Shown: positions 3,173-28,470 of the stretch, piece after piece | How the letters are laid out: each line of letters opens with the position of its first letter | Numbering within the stretch: position 1 is the first letter of the stretch | Source: Saccoglossus kowalevskii | Taxonomy: Eukaryota; Hemichordata; Enteropneusta; Harrimaniidae | Assembly: GCF_000003605.2 (NCBI RefSeq) | Contig: NW_003122928.1 | Location: 68,598-97,286, forward strand | Reading direction: 5' to 3' | Length of the DNA stretch: 28,689 nucleotides | Notes under the pieces: model-generated | Databases searched by the model: none | What the model saw: the letters and a program-made list of their open reading frames with translations, nothing else | What the model was told of the DNA's origin: nothing | Made by a program: the position numbers and the translations under genes

Positions 3173-3535
3173 ATGTCCATCAATACATACAACAGTAAGC
3201 ATCGTAAGCTATTTCATAATATACAATCGTCGCTTGGTCATAAGGAGGACAATGCAATTTAAGAGTCACTCTTCAATGAACAACTACCCGACATTGAAAA
3301 AGAAAGCCTTATTGGAGCAGCTGAGATTTTTGAGAAATTGGGAGAGAGAGGTTTGATCAAAGCAGATGACTTGACACTATTACGTGGTCTAATAACTAAG
3401 GTCAACAGAATACCGTTAATAGACAAGTGTATAACACCATGTGAAAATGATCTTGCTGGGATACAGCGGAATGGGAGCGACGTGGTCGATTTACCATCCA
3501 ACACTGGAACAAAATCCAAAGGCAAAACAACATAA
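3173..3535 (+). pseudogene. Death-effector-domain protein, interrupted by one in-frame stop
   Basis: From ATG 3173 a single frame runs 121 codons to TAA 3533, broken only by TAA at codon 30 (3260-3262). Codons 9-29 fit DED helix 1 (KLFHNIQSSLG). After the stop, ESLFNEQLPDIEKESL fits helices 2-3, and codons 51-86 fit helices 4-6: EIFEKLGERGLI, then ADDLTLLRGLI, then KVNRIPLIDKC. The last segment sits where family members carry the RxDL motif, here with P in place of D. About 33 polar residues follow with no second domain. DEDs mediate homotypic assembly of FADD, caspase-8 and FLIP type complexes. The single lesion and otherwise open frame suggest a young pseudogene, a sequencing error or a segregating null allele. 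Alternatively, an exon could begin after TTTAAG at about 3264. No intron separates helices 1 and 2, unlike the intact DED gene at 23693-25702. Confidence 0.6.
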
Positions 3536-5085: not shown

Positions 5086-8000
5086 GTTTGTAATAATCGA
5101 TAATATCGATAATCTTTCGACAGTGGTAAAAAGAATCCCAATTGCGTTTCAGTGATTTGATGACAATCTAAGATTCAAAAATAACAACCAGAGTTGTAGA
5201 TCATTTCGCTGTGATGTTTTGTAACTTAAAGGCGAAAATCTTGCGAATATATAACTGCTTAATTTATTTCAGTGCACATAGCACTTAACATGACGATGAC
5301 TTCAAACAAAACCTAATAGCAATACAGCTTTGAGAGTTATTGATCAATGTTTCTTTTTGAGAAGATTCGAGTGAGTACAATGTGTCTGTTTTCGATAGTT
5401 TCCCATGAAGGTAGTAGCTGTATTTCGCAATTTTGGTATGTATATTTAGTGCAAAACGGTGGCTATTGTTGCTAATACATCCAGGGTATACGACTTCCTG
5501 TACATGTACCGACAGCGTGTTTATCTGTACTGACTTAGTGAATAATATGACACGTCACAAGTTTGGATGTTTGAGACATGCAATTATCTGCTAAAAAAGC
5601 CATACACAGCGGATTTCGTATTTGCGCAAACCAAAGTCCAAAACATACATTGGCTTCAGATTATGGGCGTCGAAGAGACCAGTGTCCAACATTACACTAG
5701 TCCTGTGTAACTATTGTGAAAATAAAATAATATGAATCTGCATTCAAATTATGTAATATCTATGAAAAAGTGGCATACGTGTTCATGTTTATACACAGTT
5801 AATTGCTATAGTGTGATTGTTAAATACTTTTGAATTGCTTTGCTTTAATTGGGATTTGTTTTTATATTTTACACTCTGTATCTATTTATATCGACGTACA
5901 ACATTTAATTAATAAGTAACTTTATTCGGGTATACAATAACTAACAAATAATTCGGCATTGGAGAACGTCTAATAAAGGCAGATTGTCACGTGCTTATCA
6001 TAAAAAAATAATGAATATTTTAGTGGATATTCATTAAAATGAAACAAACATATTTTAACTATTACGATCTGGCCGATTGAGAATCTAGAGTAAGTAGCAT
6101 CCTAAAGAATGCAAATAAAGGAATACTGCCCCTGGTTTGACCTGTTCTTTTCATGTCAAAAATGAAAATTGACGTCCTGAAGCAGCGCAGTAATATATCT
6201 AACCAGCAATGTGAGCAGTACACAACAACTCTGATGAAAATTAGCACGGACTATAATGTAATAGTAATAAACAATTATAATTAATCATTTACTACACGTA
6301 AAGTTTCAAATTAAGGAATTACATAAATAATATAACTTGGATTGTATACACATTCATGTATACAGCAATATGTTTAAACAAAATTGAGTACATGTACGAG
6401 GTAATTACTCTATGCTCATCACTATTTCGATATTTAAAATTGTTATACTGCATGATAGAGCAATTATTAATAATATATATTTACTATCTAATTGACATAG
6501 CTTAGAAAATATTTTCATAGCCAAAAGTATCAGTGTTTTTACTCTGTCTACTTCTATGTCTAACAAATGGATCATTTTTGGCATATTATAACCCATATGC
6601 TGGTCACACACAAATTCAATTGGTTTGACCTTTTAATGTCAGTGATGTCAGTGATGCTAGTTATGTTAACCACGCAAACAAGGCAATTTGAAGTTAAATG
6701 TTCCCAATATCTTGAAAAAACTTATTAATAGATGCAATTTTGAAAGAGAAAACAACAACACCACATAGACATATATTTACGCTGTTATATGCCTGTCTCT
6801 CAATCTTGGGTCTTCATTATCTAAAGGCAAATTGCATGTATAATCAGTACAGAATTCAACATATCTGGTTATGAAAACAAACAATTGTGTACTATTTTAC
6901 TTTGAATATACAAACTATTGAAACATGTCTCACCTGCCATGATGGTTTCATGAATTAATGAAATCAAGATCAAATTCAGTAGTACAGTAATTATCTACAC
7001 TTCACGATGGAATCATCTGGTTATTGAACGTGAAATATACTATAAATGTTAATTACGTATATCTGGCAGGCGAGGTTGCAGCTAGTACGGCTTCAATCGT
7101 TGCTTGTACAATAATTCATAGATTGATTTAGACTCTTCTAAAGCAACCAGGTCGTTTTCCGGAATGTGTCATTCGCCGGTAGAGAGTGAGAACTGGTACT
7201 TTTAAGTGCATTACCAAACCGGTGTTCTCAATTTTTGTTATGTTTCATGAGATGGTGCCAATCATCCATGTTTTTGGAATCCCATTAAAGCATTTTCTCA
7301 CTGAATGTCACACCAATCCTTTCACAGAACTGTGTCAGTTCTATTTAAGGAAACTGGGACAGATCGTGAGCGTCAATAATTATACATGTTTGGTTTTGTT
7401 CTGTGAAATACTCGTATAAATTCAATACTGGTTTAAGGCTTCCATATGAATATGAATACCTACGCGGGAATGTTGAAACTCCAGTGTTTATTTTTGTTTT
7501 CCAGAAACTGGAAATACTTTGATTTGGATCACGAATCAAAAACGCGTGTGTATATCCTACTGGTATGTTGTCACATCTTACTACCATAAAATCAGCAATA
7601 ACTTTGAAAACAATCAGACTTTTTCTTTTGAAGTCTAACATAGTTTTTACTTCTTGGTTACGGCCATTGACATATGTTGTATTGTCTTCTAAACATTGCT
7701 TCCATTCTTCTATGAATGGAACTTCATATGGTTCCATAAACGTTTTAGTATTTTCTCGGCCTGCAAAACATTGTAGAAGAGCCGTTGATGTAGTTTTTTT
7801 TTGGTGTTTACTTATTGCAACACGACGTGGGCGATGTGACGTCATTTCAACCTGTTCAAAAAGAATATTAAATAATATACTTTCAGGTTTAAACGAAATT
7901 ATCATTCATTGGTGATTAAATTGTACCCAATGATATTGAGCTCGAAAATAGGCCTGTGACACGTTTCAAAATTGTATGGGTGGATCTATTTGTTTGCGTT

Positions 8001-8432
8001 AATACTCGGGTATGAGTTGTACTTTGAACCATACGTTCATGTGATTGAACACAGCAATAACTATGATACCTGTAAGCAACTGTTTTTATGAAGTTAATCT
8101 TAAATTAGATCAATTACAAAAAAATGTATATAGGTATATAAGTGTGTTTATCTACCTGGTTTACTGTGGTGTTTAGTGAACATAAACCGTTACATACCTG
8201 TATTTAGCTATTTCTCTCAGTTGAGCACCCTTTACTGTTCAGCTGTTCAAAGGTCAATCACAACTCTTATGACGTTTCAGATTAGTCACTATGCGATATA
8301 GTGCTGTCACATGGCCTAGGGTTTGCAGGTTGACCATTCCATAGGTGTCACAGATCAAAACATTATTATGTTACAATAATGTGCTAATATATAGCAAATA
8401 ATACAACTCTTTCGAGAGGTACTCATAACCCT
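5086..8432 (+). repeat. Large inverted repeat, outer left arm (partner 13026-16138)
   Basis: The reverse complement of 13026-16138 aligns along this segment with frequent substitutions and small indels. Landmarks run in the same order: TTTGTAATAATCGATAA at the outer edge, GGTGATTTGATGACAATCTA type words near 5155, the ACATGTACTCAATT region, the sulfotransferase-like pseudogene, and GGTTGACCATTCC near the inner edge. The outer boundary is sharp at about 5086/16138. The arms are 3.35 and 3.11 kb, separated by about 4.6 kb. Both coding and flanking DNA are duplicated, so this is a segmental inverted duplication rather than two independent retrocopies. Confidence 0.9.
7082..7845 (-). pseudogene. 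Sulfotransferase-like P-loop protein, decayed copy (left arm)
   Basis: An ATG at 7845 starts a frame containing HRPRRVAIS, STALLQCFAGRENTKTFMEPY, IPVGYTHAFLIRDPNQSISS and CIIIDAHDLSQ. This is the order seen in a sulfotransferase-like P-loop family common in marine invertebrates and often labelled branched-chain-amino-acid-aminotransferase-like. The family keeps an N-terminal PRSxSTAL-type PAPS-binding loop; here the residues before STAL are altered (SKHQKKTT), so catalysis is doubtful. The frame stops at 7345-7347 just after DLSQFP. Recognisable sequence (TQFCERIGVTF, then MDDWH) continues beyond it with further in-frame stops, down to the position matching the other copy's end (CTA at 7082-7084, TAG on this strand). 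No introns are evident. It is a dead copy, but longer in its 5' half than the right-arm copy. Confidence 0.6.
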
Positions 8433-10646: not shown

Positions 10647-11299
10647 GCGGCTTGAAATGGTATGGTCCAATTCAAAAATTTGTATTGCTGTGTCTTCTAA
10701 AAACATGAGATCACAATGATTTCTGTTAATTTTTTACTGTTGTAGATCCTGAGAACTAGCCACTGAATATGATGTCGGGAATGAATAGTATTTTGAACAA
10801 GCTTTATTAATTATTGCTGGCAATATTACAATATGAATATCTAGAAAATCGTGACACCATTCTAGCTGTTGTATTGTTATGCTTCTTAAATATTTTTTTC
10901 AAATGTCTTGAAACAGATTAAAATATAAGGATTGTAAAATATTAAGATGAAATAGTGTCCAACAAATTAATTTGTATATGGTAAACTCATTTTTTAAAGA
11001 ATTCAGTGAAAATATTATAAAATAAAATAACTTAAATAGAAATATTATGTGTATTTTTGGATGTGGAGACTTGGCTGGCCCACTCAAAAATAAAAAGATG
11101 TGAGGTCTCCAGTTCTTTGTTATTTTATTCTTTTTTTATTTGTGAAAAAACTTGTGAAAAGACTGCAAACAATTAACACTCATAGTGCAGGGCTAGTTTT
11201 CAACATGTCTTTTGCGTGAGTGTGAAATTGCATTGGTTTAGTGACTAAATCTTATTTTTTTTAATAATAGAATTTCTTTAATTTGGGGGAGTCCTTCTA
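10647..11299 (+). repeat. Inner hairpin, left arm (partner 11340-11932)
   Basis: The segment aligns with the reverse complement of 11340-11932 from GAAATGGTATGGTCCAATTC at the outer end to ATTTGGGGGAGTCCTTCTA at the inner end. About 110 bases around 10890-11000 are present only in this arm. The arms approach to a loop of about 40 bases (11300-11339), so the whole unit is a fold-back of about 1.3 kb. I see no coding sequence in it. Confidence 0.9.
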
Positions 11300-11339: not shown

Positions 11340-11932
11340 TAGAAGAACCTTCCCAAATAAAAAAAATTCTAAAATTTAAAAACATAAGAGGTAGTCACTA
11401 AACCATGTACTTTCACACTCAAGCAAGAGAATATACATTTGTTGGTGAACTAGCCTTGCACTGTGAGTGTTTTATTGTTTACACTCTGTAAAANNNNNNN
11501 NNNNNNNNNNNNNNNNNNNNNNNNNNNNNNNNNNNNNNNNNNNNNNNNNNNNNNNNNNNNNNNNNNNNNNNNNNNNNNNNNNNNNNNNNNNNNNNNNNNN
11601 NNNNNNNNNNNNNNNNNNNNNNNNNNCTACATACAAAAATACACATAATATTTCTATTTAATTTATTTTATTAAAAACAAAATATTTTAGAAGCATAACA
11701 ATACAACGACTAGATTTGGTGTAACAGTTTGCTCTCAATTCATACTGGAATATTGCCAGCAATAATTAATAAAGCTTGTTCAGAAAATCATTTATTCCCG
11801 ATATCATATTCAATGGCTAGTTCTCAGGATCTACAACAGTAAATAAATAAAGAGAAATCATTGTGATCTCATGTTTTTAGAAGACACAGCAATACAAATT
11901 TTTGAATTGGACCATACCATTTCATACCGGAA
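11340..11932 (-). repeat. Inner hairpin, right arm (contains the assembly gap)
   Basis: Partner of 10647-11299. It begins TAGAAGAACCTTCCCAAAT at the loop and ends at GGACCATACCATTTCATACC. Bases 11494-11626 are unknown. By alignment the gap should correspond to roughly 11064-11160 in the left arm. Confidence 0.9.
11494..11626. other. Assembly gap (133 N)
   Basis: A run of N. It falls inside the right arm of the inner hairpin, consistent with assembly or sequencing trouble at a self-complementary locus. Open frames across it are meaningless. Confidence 0.99.
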
Positions 11933-13025: not shown

Positions 13026-16000
13026 AGGGTTATATTAGAGTTATATTATTTACTATATATTAGCTCGCTTGTAACATAATATTATTTTGCTTTGTGATAC
13101 ATAGGGAATGGTCAACCTCCAGGCCATGTGACAGCACTATATCGCTTGGTAACTAATCTGAAACGTCAAGAGAGTTGTGCTTGACCTTTGAACAGCTGAA
13201 CAGTAAAGGTCGCTCCACTGAGAAGTTCAGCCAATACAGGTATGTAACGGTTTCTGCTCACGAACCATCACAATTAACCAGGTAGATAATCATGGTTATA
13301 TACCCATATACATGCTTTCTTATTGATCTAATTCAAGATCAACTTTACAAAAACCGTTGCTTACAAGAAGCATAGTTAATCACATGAACTTAAGGTTCAA
13401 AGTTCAACTCATAACCGTGTATAAACGCGAACGAATATATTCAACTATACAATTTTGATATGTATCACAAGCCTATTATTTAGCTCAATGCCATTGGATA
13501 CAATTTAATCACTAATGAGTGATAACGTCATTAAAACCTGAAGGTATATTATTTCATATTTTTTAAACAGTTTGAAATGACGTCACATCGCCCACGTCGT
13601 GTTGCAATATCGAAACACCAACGGACTACATCAACAGCTCTTCTACAATGTTTTGCAGGCCGAGAAAATTTTTGTTTTCAAAGATATCGCTGATTTTATG
13701 GTAGAAAAATATGACAAAATACCAGACGGATATACACACACTTTTGTGATTCGTGATCCAAATCAAAGTATTTCTAGTTTCTGGAACAAAATAATAAACA
13801 CTGGAGTTTCAACCTTCCCACGTAGGTATTCATATGGAAGCCTTAAACCAGTATTGAATTTATTCACAGAACAAAATCAAACCTGCATATTGACGCTCAC
13901 GATCTGTCTCAGTTTCTTGAAATAGTATTGACACAGTTCTGCGAGCGGATTGGTGTAACATTCAATGAGAAAATGCTTCAATGGGATTCTCAAAACATGG
14001 ATGATTGGCACCCTTTCATAAAACATAACAAAAATGGGGAAACTTGTTTGGTAATGCACTTAAAAGTACTAGTTGTCACCCTCCACCGACCAAGAACACG
14101 CCGATTGATTTGTCAGTCATTCCGGAAAACGGCCTGGTTGCATTAGAAGAATTTAAACCAATTTATGAGTTATTGTACGAGGTACGATTGAAGCCGTACT
14201 AGCTGACACCTCGCCTGCCAGATATACGTAATTAACACTTATAGTATAATTCACGTTCGAAATAACGGGATGATTCCATTGTGAAGTCTTGATAATTACT
14301 GTAGAACTGAATTTGATCTTGATTCCATTAATTCATGAAACCATTATGGCAGGTATTGCATGTTTCAATATCTTGTATATTCAAAGTAAAATAGTACATG
14401 TACACAGTTGTTTGTTTTAATAACCAGACATGTTGAATACTGTACTCTTTATAGATCTAATGTGCCTTTAGATAATAAAGATCCAAGATTGAGAGACAGG
14501 TATTTAACAGTGTAAATATATGTCTATGTGGTGTTGTTGTTTTCTCTTTCAAAATTAATTCTATTAATAGGTTTGCTAATTTTTTGAATTGTGTTCTATA
14601 TACGCTTTTTCGAGATATTGGTGACATTTCACTTCAAATTGCCTTATGCGTGTGGTTAAAATAACTAACATCACTGACGTTAAAAGTTCAAACCAATTTA
14701 GTTTGTGTGTGACCAGCTTATGGGTTATAATATGCCAAAAATTATGCATTTGTTAGACATAGAAGTAGACAGAGTAAAAACACTGATACGTTCGGTAATG
14801 AAAATGTTTCCTAAGATGTGTCAATTAGACAGTAAACCTATATATTGTTACTAATTCCTGTATTATGCAGTATAAAAATTTTTAATATCGAAATAGTGAT
14901 GAGCATAGAGTAATTACCTCGTACATGTACTCAATTGTGTTTAAACATTTTGCTGTATACATGAATGTGTATACAATTCAAGTTATATTATTTATGTAAT
15001 TCCTTAATTCGAAACTTTCTGAGGACAATGAGTAATTATAATCGTTTATTACTATGACGTGATAGTCCGTGTGCATTTTTCATAAGAGTTATTGGTCACA
15101 GTTCACATTGCTGGTTTGATAAATTATTACGCTGCTTCAGGACTTCAATTCACGTTTTTGACATGAAAAGAACAGATCATAGCAGAAGTTAGTATTCTTT
15201 GTTTTTATTAGTTGAGAATCTTTTTCGCTACTTACTCTAGATTCTCAATCGGCAAGATTGTAATTGTTAGGCTATGTTGTTTTCATTTTAATGAATAACC
15301 ACTGAAATATTCATTAAATTGTTGCGACAATCACGTGACAGTCTGCCTTTATTAGACGTTCTTCAATGTCGAGTTATTTGTTAGTTATTGCATATCCGAA
15401 TAAAGTTACCTATTAATTTGTGTATGTCGATATAAAGAGATACAGAGTGTAAATATAAAAAGAAATCCCAATTAAAACAGGAATTCACAAATATTTAACA
15501 ACCACACTATAACAATAAATTGTGTACAAACATGAACACGTATGGCAATTTATAATATATATTACATAATTGGAGTTATAACATGCAGATTCATATTATT
15601 TTCTTTTCAATATAGTTACACGGGACTGGTGTACTCTAGGGCACTGGTCTCCATGCCGACCATAATCTGAAGTCAATGTATGTTGTGGACTTTGGTTTGC
15701 GCAAATACAAAATCCGCGTAGTATGACCTTTTCAGCAGATAATTGCATGTCTCAAACATTTAAACGAGTCTCCTGATGTGTCATATTAATCAGTAACTCA
15801 ATACTGATAAACACGCTGTCAATACATATACAGGCATCCGTATACCCTGAATGTATTAGAAACATTGGCAACCGTTGGAGTCTCTCAAAATCAGACACAT
15901 TGTACACGAATTTGCTCAAGGAGAGAAACATGGATTAATAACTCTTAAAGTTGCATTGTTAGAAATGTTTTGTTTGAAGGCAATGGCATGTTAAGTGATA

Positions 16001-19473: not shown

Positions 19474-20622
19474 CCAAAACAATATAATATACCCGACGGA
19501 ATTGCGTTGAATATCGCAATCACGTGAATACGTAAATTTGGTGACTCTGCAGAAATGTATTTCTCAGGAACGCGTTAGATAGCGTAGTTGTAACTGCAGT
19601 CGCAACTAAACAAAAATGTCTAAAGTTCTAACGGTATAGATAATTTAAACTTAACCTATTGATGTTTGGTTCATCTAATCCGCAAATAAACTAGATACGA
19701 TTAAATAAACAGTAACTATACTTGAGTAGGATGATCCGCCTATGTTTAGCATAACAAAGCATTTGAATTAATGAAGCGAATATGACGCCATGTTGATGAA
19801 CCAGTGCAATGAAATTTCGCAAACACTTATGGATTTTCGCCGATTTCACCCTCCATGCAGTTTGTTGTAATAAAAAAAAACAAGACATATGGTTGCTCAA
19901 TCCTAATACCAATTAAATATCACAATTTCATTAAAGACAAAAGACAAAAATGTGTTATTTTACAACGAACATCCAGGTAAATTAGTTTTTTGTTGTTTCT
20001 TCAGTTCACACATCTGCACTAATTTGAACTTTTCAAGATAAAGTTGGCGGTACTTTCGCAGTACGCACTTGAAATTAACACCAAGTGTTGTCAGGATATC
20101 AAACAATAAAAGTGTCGACGGGGAGAATTTTGCTGCCATTTTTTTTCTTGTTTTATGACCCCGGGACTCATAAGTGTCTTATTTTTTTAAAGAAACAATA
20201 GTATTTATGATAATATTTAAAAAAATAATCACATACAAACGTTCATCGACACTTTATAAGAGCCTTTCACAGCGAAATTATTCTGAAATCCCCAATCAAA
20301 TGGTTAAATCGCTGGGGCAGAACTTTTGGATTTGTTATTTTGACAGGGTCCATTTAATCCCTAGTCACATGATCCCTATGAAAACAATCATTGCAAAATG
20401 TGAATTATCAAATTCCTGAATATTTCAGCTTTCATAAAATATATAGTTTGCTATAAATATGTTTTTGATTTGAGTTGCTCAGATCATTTTAACTAAATGA
20501 CGGGATTTTCTTGGTTACTACATTAAGTATAATACATTATAAGTAAGAACAAATTCTTTTAAAAACTGAATCATGAATAAATAATGTTTGCATACAAATA
20601 TTTTGTTAATTTTTTTTTGTAG

Positions 20623-23393: not shown

Positions 23394-23399
23394 TTTATT
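23394..23399 (-). terminator. Polyadenylation signal AATAAA for the DED gene
   Basis: TTTATT on the plus strand reads AATAAA on the minus strand. It is the first canonical hexamer after the stop codon at 23693-23695, giving a 3' untranslated region of roughly 300 bases. It was chosen by position and motif only; another occurs near 23142. Confidence 0.45.
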
Positions 23400-23692: not shown

Positions 23693-25702
23693 TCACTTCA
23701 GTCTTGAGTTGCGCGGTTTCTCCACTTCGTCGAATCCCGTTCTGAACTTGACTTTGACTTGTTCAACTAAATCTTTCCGATCTAGTCCCTGAAGTAAGTG
23801 AATAAGTGCTGCTGGGTCATTTTTTGTTAGATGTCCTGTTTCGTACAATTTCCGAAGCAAGGCATATGGTTGCTCTTTTTTGAGTTTCTCTCTTGCACCC
23901 TTTTTAAAAGGCGGTTTTAGTGTGTCGGTCCTATCAACCAGGGTCTTATATTCTGATGAGAAAAGAGAATATACTAAATGCAAATATACTATTGTATTGT
24001 AATTTAAATGGACACTACTTGTTGTGTGAAGTGTGGCGTCGTCAATTGGAACGCTTTGCTTATATCATTTTGCTAAATTAATCAATAATAAATATCTCTT
24101 CAAAATAGTTTTTTTTTTACATACAGAAATTGTGCTTGACATACAGAAATTGTCTACCAAAATGAACGCAGTGTACTCAGGGAGAGAGCAATCGCCATTT
24201 TAATTTGAAGCAATATAGTAATCATGTATGGCGGACCACAACAATCACCCACGACATTGGCCCACGCACGATATTACTATGTAACAACAAAGAGGACGTA
24301 CGACGTAAAGTATGAATTAAATATGACCCGATTGTAAAAAAATACACGTGTTTGCTAGTCACGTGCCTTGCTCTATTAGAACTAATACTAATTTTCTCGA
24401 TATTTTTCAACCTTCGACACCTTGCTGAGACTCTTGACTCACGTCCCGAGGAACAGTTAGAAGAAATATAACAAAACTACGCCCCTTATTTAGGCATGCG
24501 TAAAATAGCAGCGACGTTCCGAAAACCACAAACTGTGCTCGACATTGTATTTTCAGTTATATAAAGACAGAAAAAGATATACAAATAAATAAGTTTGAAA
24601 CGGCTATTGTAACAATCGTCGCGCAGAACATGTACAAGTATGTATTGTACATGCGTTGTATACGTCACTATAGGTCCCATGTAGAACACGACGCGGATCG
24701 ATGACTGCAGCGCTTTCCGCGCTGGGGACAATAATTGTATTATTATACCAGACAAAATATCATTGTGTAACACGCAGCATTGTAAGATCACTCCCGCCTA
24801 AGACTTCAATGACAACAATTATATCTACATTGACATATAACTGTGTCATGACACTTCCAATGATTTGTATGTATTTATATACCTTCCAATATTACTTAAA
24901 TATACATGTCTTTATATCATCTACTAAAGGGCAGTGGTGAGGCAATAGCCGAATGAATAAACCTTGTGATAGGTCAGCAGGTAATGGTTCATCTTGGAAT
25001 CGGGACCAATTGTTATTTATACCACGGAATAAAACCGTAGTGGTCAAGTAAAAAGGAATTTGTGTGTCGTGCCGTGTATCAAATATGACATACCGCTGAT
25101 TTCTTTGACTTGTCATGTCATGATTCGTTTACTGTAAATATATATGTTAGTCAATCTAAGGTCCGTGTCATTTTAAGAGAGTCTACAGCCGCTTTACAAT
25201 TGTGGTGTCCATTCATCACTATGATACAACATGCATTATACCTCCTGATACAAGGTACAATAACATAATTTTATAATGTAATTCCTGATTCCGTGCTGTT
25301 AAATGATGACTTAGTGTGCATACGCATGTGTCAATGGTATTTAAATGCAATAGAAACCCCCTTCTTGCACAATGGCAATTGATACTTCGGATATATAATC
25401 CCTTAGTACTTCCCTGTGAATAAATAAATGAAAAATCACTCATAACTATTTGAGTCTTCTGCATTTTGTCTGAAATACCTGCTCATTCAGCAATGAAATC
25501 ATGATGCCCCCTGAATTAAATTTTATTATATTTTGTACATAAACAACTACTTTGTGGGAGAATAGTAAGCTATACCTGCTTTACTATTTATTTTAGTTCT
25601 AAAATGATTATAAACATAATGTGTTCACTTACCAGCATCGATGTCAATATCCTCTGCCAAGTCGTGTAAAAAACATAAAAAGGGGTCAATTTTCATTGCC
25701 AT
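23693..25702 (-). CDS. Small death-effector-domain protein, two coding exons, 109 residues
   Basis: Exon 1 coding is 25702-25633 (23 codons plus one base) and ends G/GTAAGT. Exon 2 coding is 23952-23693 and follows TATTCTCTTTTCTCATCAG. The phase-1 join makes a GAA codon and an open frame of 109 residues. An in-frame TAA lies upstream of the first ATG. An acceptor-like site (TTCTTTATTGCAG, ending at 25743) suggests a further 5' untranslated exon. The protein is nearly all one DED: helix 1 around FLCFLHDLAEDID (8-20), helix 2 around EYKTLVDRTDTL (24-35), a basic helix 3 region (39-49), helix 4 YALLRKLYETGHL (53-65), helix 5 PAALIHLLQGL (70-80), then the diagnostic RxDL motif as R82-K-D84-L85 leading helix 6. 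A polar 16-residue tail follows. There is no caspase, death domain or second DED. By family knowledge it is probably a cytosolic adaptor or decoy in FADD/caspase-8 type signalling. It could instead be the first part of a larger gene spliced differently. Confidence 0.7.
23953..25632 (-). other. Intron of the DED gene (1680 bases)
   Basis: Bounded by GTAAGT (25632-25627) and a pyrimidine-rich CTCATCAG (ending at 23953), phase 1, between DED helices 1 and 2. Inside is a 20-base-spaced direct repeat ACATACAGAAATTGT (24119-24133 and 24139-24153). At 24938-25010 a TAGCCGAATGAATAA word resembles a pol III box A, but no clear box B follows. The two opposing frames around 24486-24940 match nothing known. 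Confidence 0.65.
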
Positions 25703-25742
25703 TCTTGTTGAATTATAATCTTGTGTATGTTATGTTGCACTG

Positions 25743-25755
25743 CTGCAATAAAGAA
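25743..25755 (-). promoter_or_regulatory. Predicted 3' splice site upstream of the DED start exon
   Basis: On the minus strand a long T-rich run ends TTCTTTATTGCAG at 25743, about 40 bases before the ATG. It implies that the start codon lies in a second exon and that the promoter is further upstream, above 25812. A GTAAGT donor at 25811-25806 would give only a 69-base intron. Confidence 0.4.
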
Positions 25756-27659: not shown

Positions 27660-28470
27660 CTTAACTTTAGTTGTGAGTGATTTTCTGTGTCTTCGAGTAA
27701 TAACACTCCCGTGGTCTTTTCGTCAAAACTTGACAGGCAGGCAGGTCACACCTAAAATTTTACAAAACAAAACAAATCCTGGCCCACCGTTGACATAGGA
27801 ACAGCCCACATACTGATTTTTGATTAGCTTCGCGTAAAATGTATCTCCTCTTGCAAATATATGACTAAAAACTTCAGATATAGCCCATTCAACTAAAAAC
27901 CTCAGACATAGCTCATTTTACTCAACTTAAGTGTGGAAACAAAATTACTATCTGTTTTTTGATATCCTTTTTCATTACCGAAAATTTGACCTCAAAGCAA
28001 AGTTGGCGTGACTTTTCACCAGTAATGGCTTATTACTCTTCTGTGATTTTTTTGGCAGGGTCTATTTAGTTCATACTTGGTATGCAGGTCATACCGTCAC
28101 TCTCCAGTTGGATGGTAAAATCGGAAACAAACTGCTGTCCCACCGATGCCATGACAACAGCCAAAAGCTGATTTTTGAATAGCTTTGCGCCAAATGTATC
28201 TCCACCTACAATTTTAGGATTAAACACCTCGGCATAGCTTATTCTATTCAGCTTGAGTATGGGCACATAGTTGCTATTCGTTTTTTAATCTTGTGTTTTA
28301 TAAACGATAAATTTAACCTCAGATTTGGGCTAACTTTTCACCGGAAACCGATTTTTAACACTTCTGTGTGTTTTTTTTGGCTGTGCCGATTTCGTTCATA
28401 CTTTGAAATAATTTCTGACCCACCGTTGGTCACAGCACAATTGACATCCTAAAGCTGACACAGACTGGTG
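27660..28470 (+). repeat. Degenerate tandem repeat, unit about 280-360 bases, 2-3 copies
   Basis: The same series of words recurs in order. CCCACCG occurs at 27783, 28139 and 28419. CTGATTTTTGAWTAGCTT with AAATGTATCTCC occurs at about 27816 and 28168. ACTTTTCACC occurs at 28011 and 28333. CTTCTGTG followed by a T-run and TGGC occurs at about 28038 and 28361. TTCATACTT occurs at about 28071 and 28395. Copies differ by many substitutions and by length. Open frames in it are not conserved between copies, so it looks non-coding. Confidence 0.7.

Follow-up and report, generated by a model that had tools for sequence, protein, structure and literature searches.

The window, by which we mean the whole 28,689-nucleotide stretch of Saccoglossus kowalevskii DNA that was analyzed, carries on its minus strand a putative gene of two exons that together would encode one probable death effector domain (DED), the module through which proteins of the FADD and caspase-8 cell-death machinery make contact. 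Exon 1 (25702..25633, 70 nt) consists of 23 codons plus one base; it begins with the ATG at 25702, covers DED helix 1, and reads MAMKIDPFLCFLHDLAEDIDIDA plus the first base of codon 24. The predicted intron (25632..23953, 1680 nt, GTAAGT...TTCTCATCAG) lies in phase 1 and splits the codon of E24, near the start of helix 2. Exon 2 (23952..23693, 260 nt including the TGA) supplies helices 2 to 6 and a 16-residue tail. When the two exons are joined in phase 1, they give 109 residues with a lone stop at the end (MAMKIDPF...NSRLK). The donor of exon 1, CTG/GTAAGT with the first intron base at 25632, scores 10.84 bits and ranks fifth of the 3460 GT sites on both strands of the window, and the acceptor of exon 2, TCTCTTTTCTCATCAG/AAT, scores 10.83 bits and ranks seventh of 2649 AG sites; both scores derive from consensus matrices. 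From these splice-site scores we infer that exons 1 and 2 are spliced together. An earlier note on this DNA had described two exons with strong splice sites, joined in phase into a 109-residue product, and these ranks bear that description out. It had also stated that the gene, if left unspliced, would be seen as a 96-codon frame, and exon 2 indeed appears in the open reading frame list as a 96-aa frame opening with TTG.

Both ends of the coding frame are closed by stops. Upstream, an in-frame TAA (25730..25732, minus strand) lies 27 nt 5' of the ATG and closes the N terminus, and the ATG itself stands in the context CAACAAGAATGG, with A at -3 and G at +4. An AG at 25743..25744 on the minus strand (TTTATTGCAG/CAG; 8.5 bits, rank 31 of 2649) is a candidate acceptor for a 5' untranslated region intron, which would place an exon start at 25742 and suggests that the leader is itself interrupted by an intron. 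Downstream, the first AATAAA past the stop (23394..23399, minus strand, ~294 nt away) is a candidate polyadenylation signal. Between exon 2 and the window end, eight candidate first exons run from an ATG to a phase 1 donor of at least 2 bits. Two of these eight use the donor at 25632, differing solely in their ATG (25702 or 25696), and they come out on top by donor and DED score.

The length of the frame is by itself unremarkable, since stop-free frames of 123 codons or more were present in 71 of 100 windows generated from a Markov model. Nor is the joined frame remarkable in its purine-first-codon-position measure (0.10), which gives no coding signal there. What rises above chance is the splice sites taken together with the DED match (Pfam E = 4.2e-4; 1 of 5000 shuffles in a profile test).

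Evidence for a DED

A Pfam search had been proposed as a check on the DED assignment, and it gave a weak match. Against the joined protein, DED (PF01335) was the sole family reported, with an E value of 4.2e-4 and a score of 20.9 bits that falls under the curated cut-off of 35.9 bits. The aligned part spans residues 44-90, corresponding to 23753..23893 on the minus strand (computed from those residues) and to positions 30-77 of the 82 in PF01335. The match is thereby confined to the C-terminal half, in exon 2, and exon 1 brings no gain (20.9 bits for the joined protein versus 21.1 for the exon 2 frame). The claim that the protein is a DED therefore stands in part: the E value favors it, but the score is below the cut-off and the match covers residues 44-90 only. 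Since the Pfam cut-off does not certify it, we call the domain a probable divergent DED.

For a separate test of exon 1, we built a profile from six human DEDs, the letters of which were checked against PDB chains. On this profile the joined protein scored 12.4 bits, exon 2 alone 9.0 bits, and exon 1 alone 6.8 bits; exon 1 aligned to positions 1-18, which correspond to helix 1, and one of 5000 shuffles of the joined protein attained 12.4 bits. When 533 frames were scanned, the exon 2 frame came third (8.1 bits) and the exon 1 frame fifth. Second place went to frame 19694-19912 (11.0 bits), which stands above the exon 2 frame, has no Pfam match, and was taken as chance. The idea that the two exons encode parts of one domain is thus upheld by the splice sites and by exon 1, which on its own matches helix 1 of the DED. 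A phmmer search with the joined protein returned 10 PDB matches, with no DED chain among them.

The RxDL motif reported earlier was found as RKDL (R82-K83-D84-L85, residues 82-85; 23768..23779, minus strand), in helix 6, where it aligns to RHDL of FADD. E24 falls one column off E19 of FADD, the acidic helix 2 partner in the E/D-RxDL triad. The helix 2 FL pair is not kept: its place is taken by V-D in the alignment, or by D-R at a shift of one, and this statement is uncertain because helices 2 and 3 align poorly.

Past helix 6 the frame continues for 16 residues to its stop. Pfam matched no other domain (death, caspase, helicase, or any other) better than E = 0.1 in the minus-strand frames scanned, which were 18 of 72 on the downstream side and 5 of 32 upstream; the best match in these neighboring frames was SUIM_assoc, at E = 0.13. 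On the upstream side, the window ends 3 kb past exon 1. A larger gene reached through a donor in exon 2 that skips the stop was considered and rejected, the best donor before the stop scoring only 3.0 bits. That the product has a single domain accordingly holds, with in-frame stops on both sides, for the frames covered.

Structure prediction was run on exon 2 alone, which is not the spliced protein. AlphaFold gave five helices with a mean pLDDT of 57.2, or four helices (pLDDT 52.9) when a second DED-like frame in the window (frame B, see below) was supplied as a second alignment row, and a Foldseek search with the low-pLDDT exon 2 model returned four matches, none of which was a DED. A viral or bacterial origin was also considered and rejected: there was no match in phages or genome contigs and none confirmed in viral contigs for either this gene or frame B, collections that hold few or no animal sequences and are uninformative on animal relatives.

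Likeness to FADD and other DED proteins

Among the six human DEDs, FADD was nearest to the joined protein, with a score of 51 that was equaled by 1 of 1000 and by 13 of 20,000 shuffles. The other five scored between 23 and 37, and 38 to 795 of 1000 shuffles did as well. Exon 1 matched FADD helix 1 at a score of 39 (3 of 20,000 shuffles as good), in a test that is post hoc, the likeness having been spotted beforehand; exon 2 alone was weak against FADD (246 of 20,000). After correction for taking the best of six, the joined protein was equaled by 24 of 4000 shuffles, exon 1 by 20 of 4000, and exon 2 by 291 of 4000. When 1357 stop-free frames of the window were scanned without selection, exon 2 shared first place against FADD with frame 13098-13181 (42), and exon 1 came third (39). 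Frames 13098-13181 and 13157-13282 match FADD or caspase-8 DED1 at 42 and do not match the profile; both were taken as chance.

At the level of sequence, the FADD likeness is carried mostly by helix 1 (IDPFLCFLHDL) and helices 4 to 6, which align without gaps and share 12 of 35 residues with FADD. Helices 2 and 3 are divergent, poorly aligned, and ~5 residues longer. Common to this protein and human FADD (PDB 9l5w/1a1w) are a DPFL..LLH-like helix 1, gap-free helices 4 to 6, and the RxDL motif, and the histidine at the place of FADD H9 is kept as well. In contrast to FADD, which has a death domain, none was detected here in the frames scanned, and there are ~5 extra residues between helices 2 and 4. 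Because no death domain was found, the gene is not filed as FADD. The junction of the two human FADD exons presumably lies after the DED. Vertebrate fadd genes are reported to have two exons, and medaka casp8 to have additional exons within its first DED (PMC1903365), so introns inside a DED are not new.

PEA-15 (PED) is likewise small, with one DED plus a tail and no death or caspase domain. The two sequences are not close (133 of 1000 shuffles were as good as the pairwise score), and the PEA-15 tail extends ~45 residues beyond the DED and is regulated by phosphorylation, whereas the tail here has 16 residues. Without sequence closeness, the gene is not filed as PEA-15 either. Caspase-8 and c-FLIP share the DED fold family and the RxDL motif, but they have two DEDs followed by a caspase or pseudo-caspase domain, and this protein has one DED. 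Likeness to caspase-8 DED1 (110 of 1000 shuffles) and DED2 (795 of 1000) is not above chance, and that to c-FLIP DED1 is marginal (38 of 1000). DEDs are reported to be widely shuffled, both in RLRs of lophotrochozoans and in NLRs of amphioxus (PMC8998645, PMC2575513). In such invertebrate RLRs and NLRs the DED is fused to a helicase or NACHT domain, whereas the frame here ends 16 residues past the domain. A narrow literature search found no lone-DED gene of such make in invertebrates.

A second DED-like frame

On the plus strand, frame B (3263..3532) has the likeness of DED helices 2 to 6 with a short tail and matches Pfam DED with an E value of 2.2e-5 (25 bits), also below the cut-off. It is nearest to caspase-8 DED1 (score of 72, with none of 1000 shuffles as good), and phmmer matched it to caspase-8 at an E value of 0.016. 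An in-frame TAA lies directly upstream and a good acceptor is absent, so that this neighbor, which is outside the gene, may be a fragment, a pseudogene, or a gene with its 5' end elsewhere. Eleven joined candidates for a 5' exon were tried and rejected; the best reached 21.2 bits compared to 20.8 bits without one, and all ran through weak sites.

Proposed role and alternatives

Lone-DED proteins are a known kind, so a gene for one is plausible, and the window most likely carries it. The reading that we favor, with a probability of roughly 40%, is that of a real two-exon gene whose 109-residue product is one FADD-type DED with a short tail, acting as a modulator of caspase-8-like complexes and more likely as a cap or decoy than as a seed. 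DEDs are reported to contact one another by two surfaces, a face formed by helices 1 and 4 and a hydrophobic patch on helices 2 and 5 (PMC4558505). If transcribed, spliced, and folded as predicted, the protein would use its helix 1/helix 4 face to bind DEDs of FADD- or caspase-8-like proteins in the same animal. Lacking a death domain, it would have no place on a death receptor; lacking a caspase domain, it would do no cutting. In caspase-8 DED2, the helix 2 FL pair is reported to be vital for chain formation (PMC3477315). With this pair replaced here by VD, the other face would probably be poor at accepting a further DED, and a protein with one good and one poor face would be expected to cap caspase-8-type DED chains, or compete for them as a decoy, over seeding them. 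It is because of this replacement, in an uncertain part of the alignment, that we consider a cap or decoy more likely than a seed. PEA-15 provides the known precedent: a protein with a lone DED that is reported to sequester FADD and inhibit death signaling (PMC3204462).

Few DED-only proteins are well described, PEA-15 being the standard example, and a gene whose domain is interrupted by an intron and scores below the Pfam cut-off is easily overlooked in automatic annotation. A real gene here would suggest that caspase-8-type signaling in this animal has single-DED modulators, and it would provide a compact protein for testing limits on chain growth. In a bolder version, which strikes us as quite doubtful, the protein would pair an intact FADD-like face of helices 1 and 4 with a disabled face on the other side, and would serve as a one-sided cap, encoded by the host itself, that terminates DED chains in an animal with no known PEA-15.

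The same gene might instead encode an activating adaptor that, like the FADD DED, nucleates chains of caspase-8-like DEDs. FADD being the nearest of the six DEDs compared would fit such an activity, as would the conserved RxDL motif, helix 1, and histidine at the H9 place. However, a protein without a death domain would not be recruited to a receptor, and the FL pair needed for caspase-8 chains is not kept in the alignment; we regard a nucleator as unlikely. It is about equally improbable that the locus derives from a larger DED gene (FADD, a caspase, or an RLR or NLR with a DED), as a duplicate in decay or a fragment, and yields no functional protein. DED debris is present in the window, as frame B lacks a convincing 5' exon, an old inverted duplication lies nearby, helices 2 and 3 are divergent, and the scores are weak; yet an open frame, near-perfect splice sites, and a good start context, all in register, speak against this reading.

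Under a further alternative, exon 2 is a DED exon and exon 1 its chance partner, with the true 5' end elsewhere, perhaps with more coding exons and maybe outside the window. The Pfam score is no better with exon 1 than without it, and the window offers only 4.7 kb of upstream sequence, in which 5 of 32 frames were scanned, but exon 1 independently resembles both FADD helix 1 and the start of the profile, and its donor is among the best in the window, which makes a chance pairing very doubtful. Least probable of all is that there is no DED here and that a chance open frame adjoins chance splice-like sites: an E value of 4.2e-4 is not overwhelming given the hundreds of frames in the window, and an equally long frame arose in most model windows, but the two ends of the same domain are matched by separate frames that lie on one strand and are compatible in phase.

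Other features of the window

Searches of the window with Rfam and for tRNAs found nothing. Between frame B and the two-exon gene lies a large inverted duplication (5146-8410 versus 16096-13037), with pieces that are 80-95% identical; it also includes 10653-11064 and 11629-11924, and an N run (11494-11626) lies near its axis. Each arm carries one sulfotransferase-like frame, at 7345-7905 on the minus strand and 13599-13925 on the plus strand. These listed frames did not themselves match Sulfotransfer_5 in Pfam; a frame of one arm did so at an E value of 0.004, and a hand-made hybrid of both arms did so at 2.9e-5. Toward the far end of the window, a 28-base unit is repeated in tandem 1.9 times (27864-27917), and a pair of direct repeats (27770-27848 and 28125-28203, 80% identical) is perhaps part of a dispersed element.
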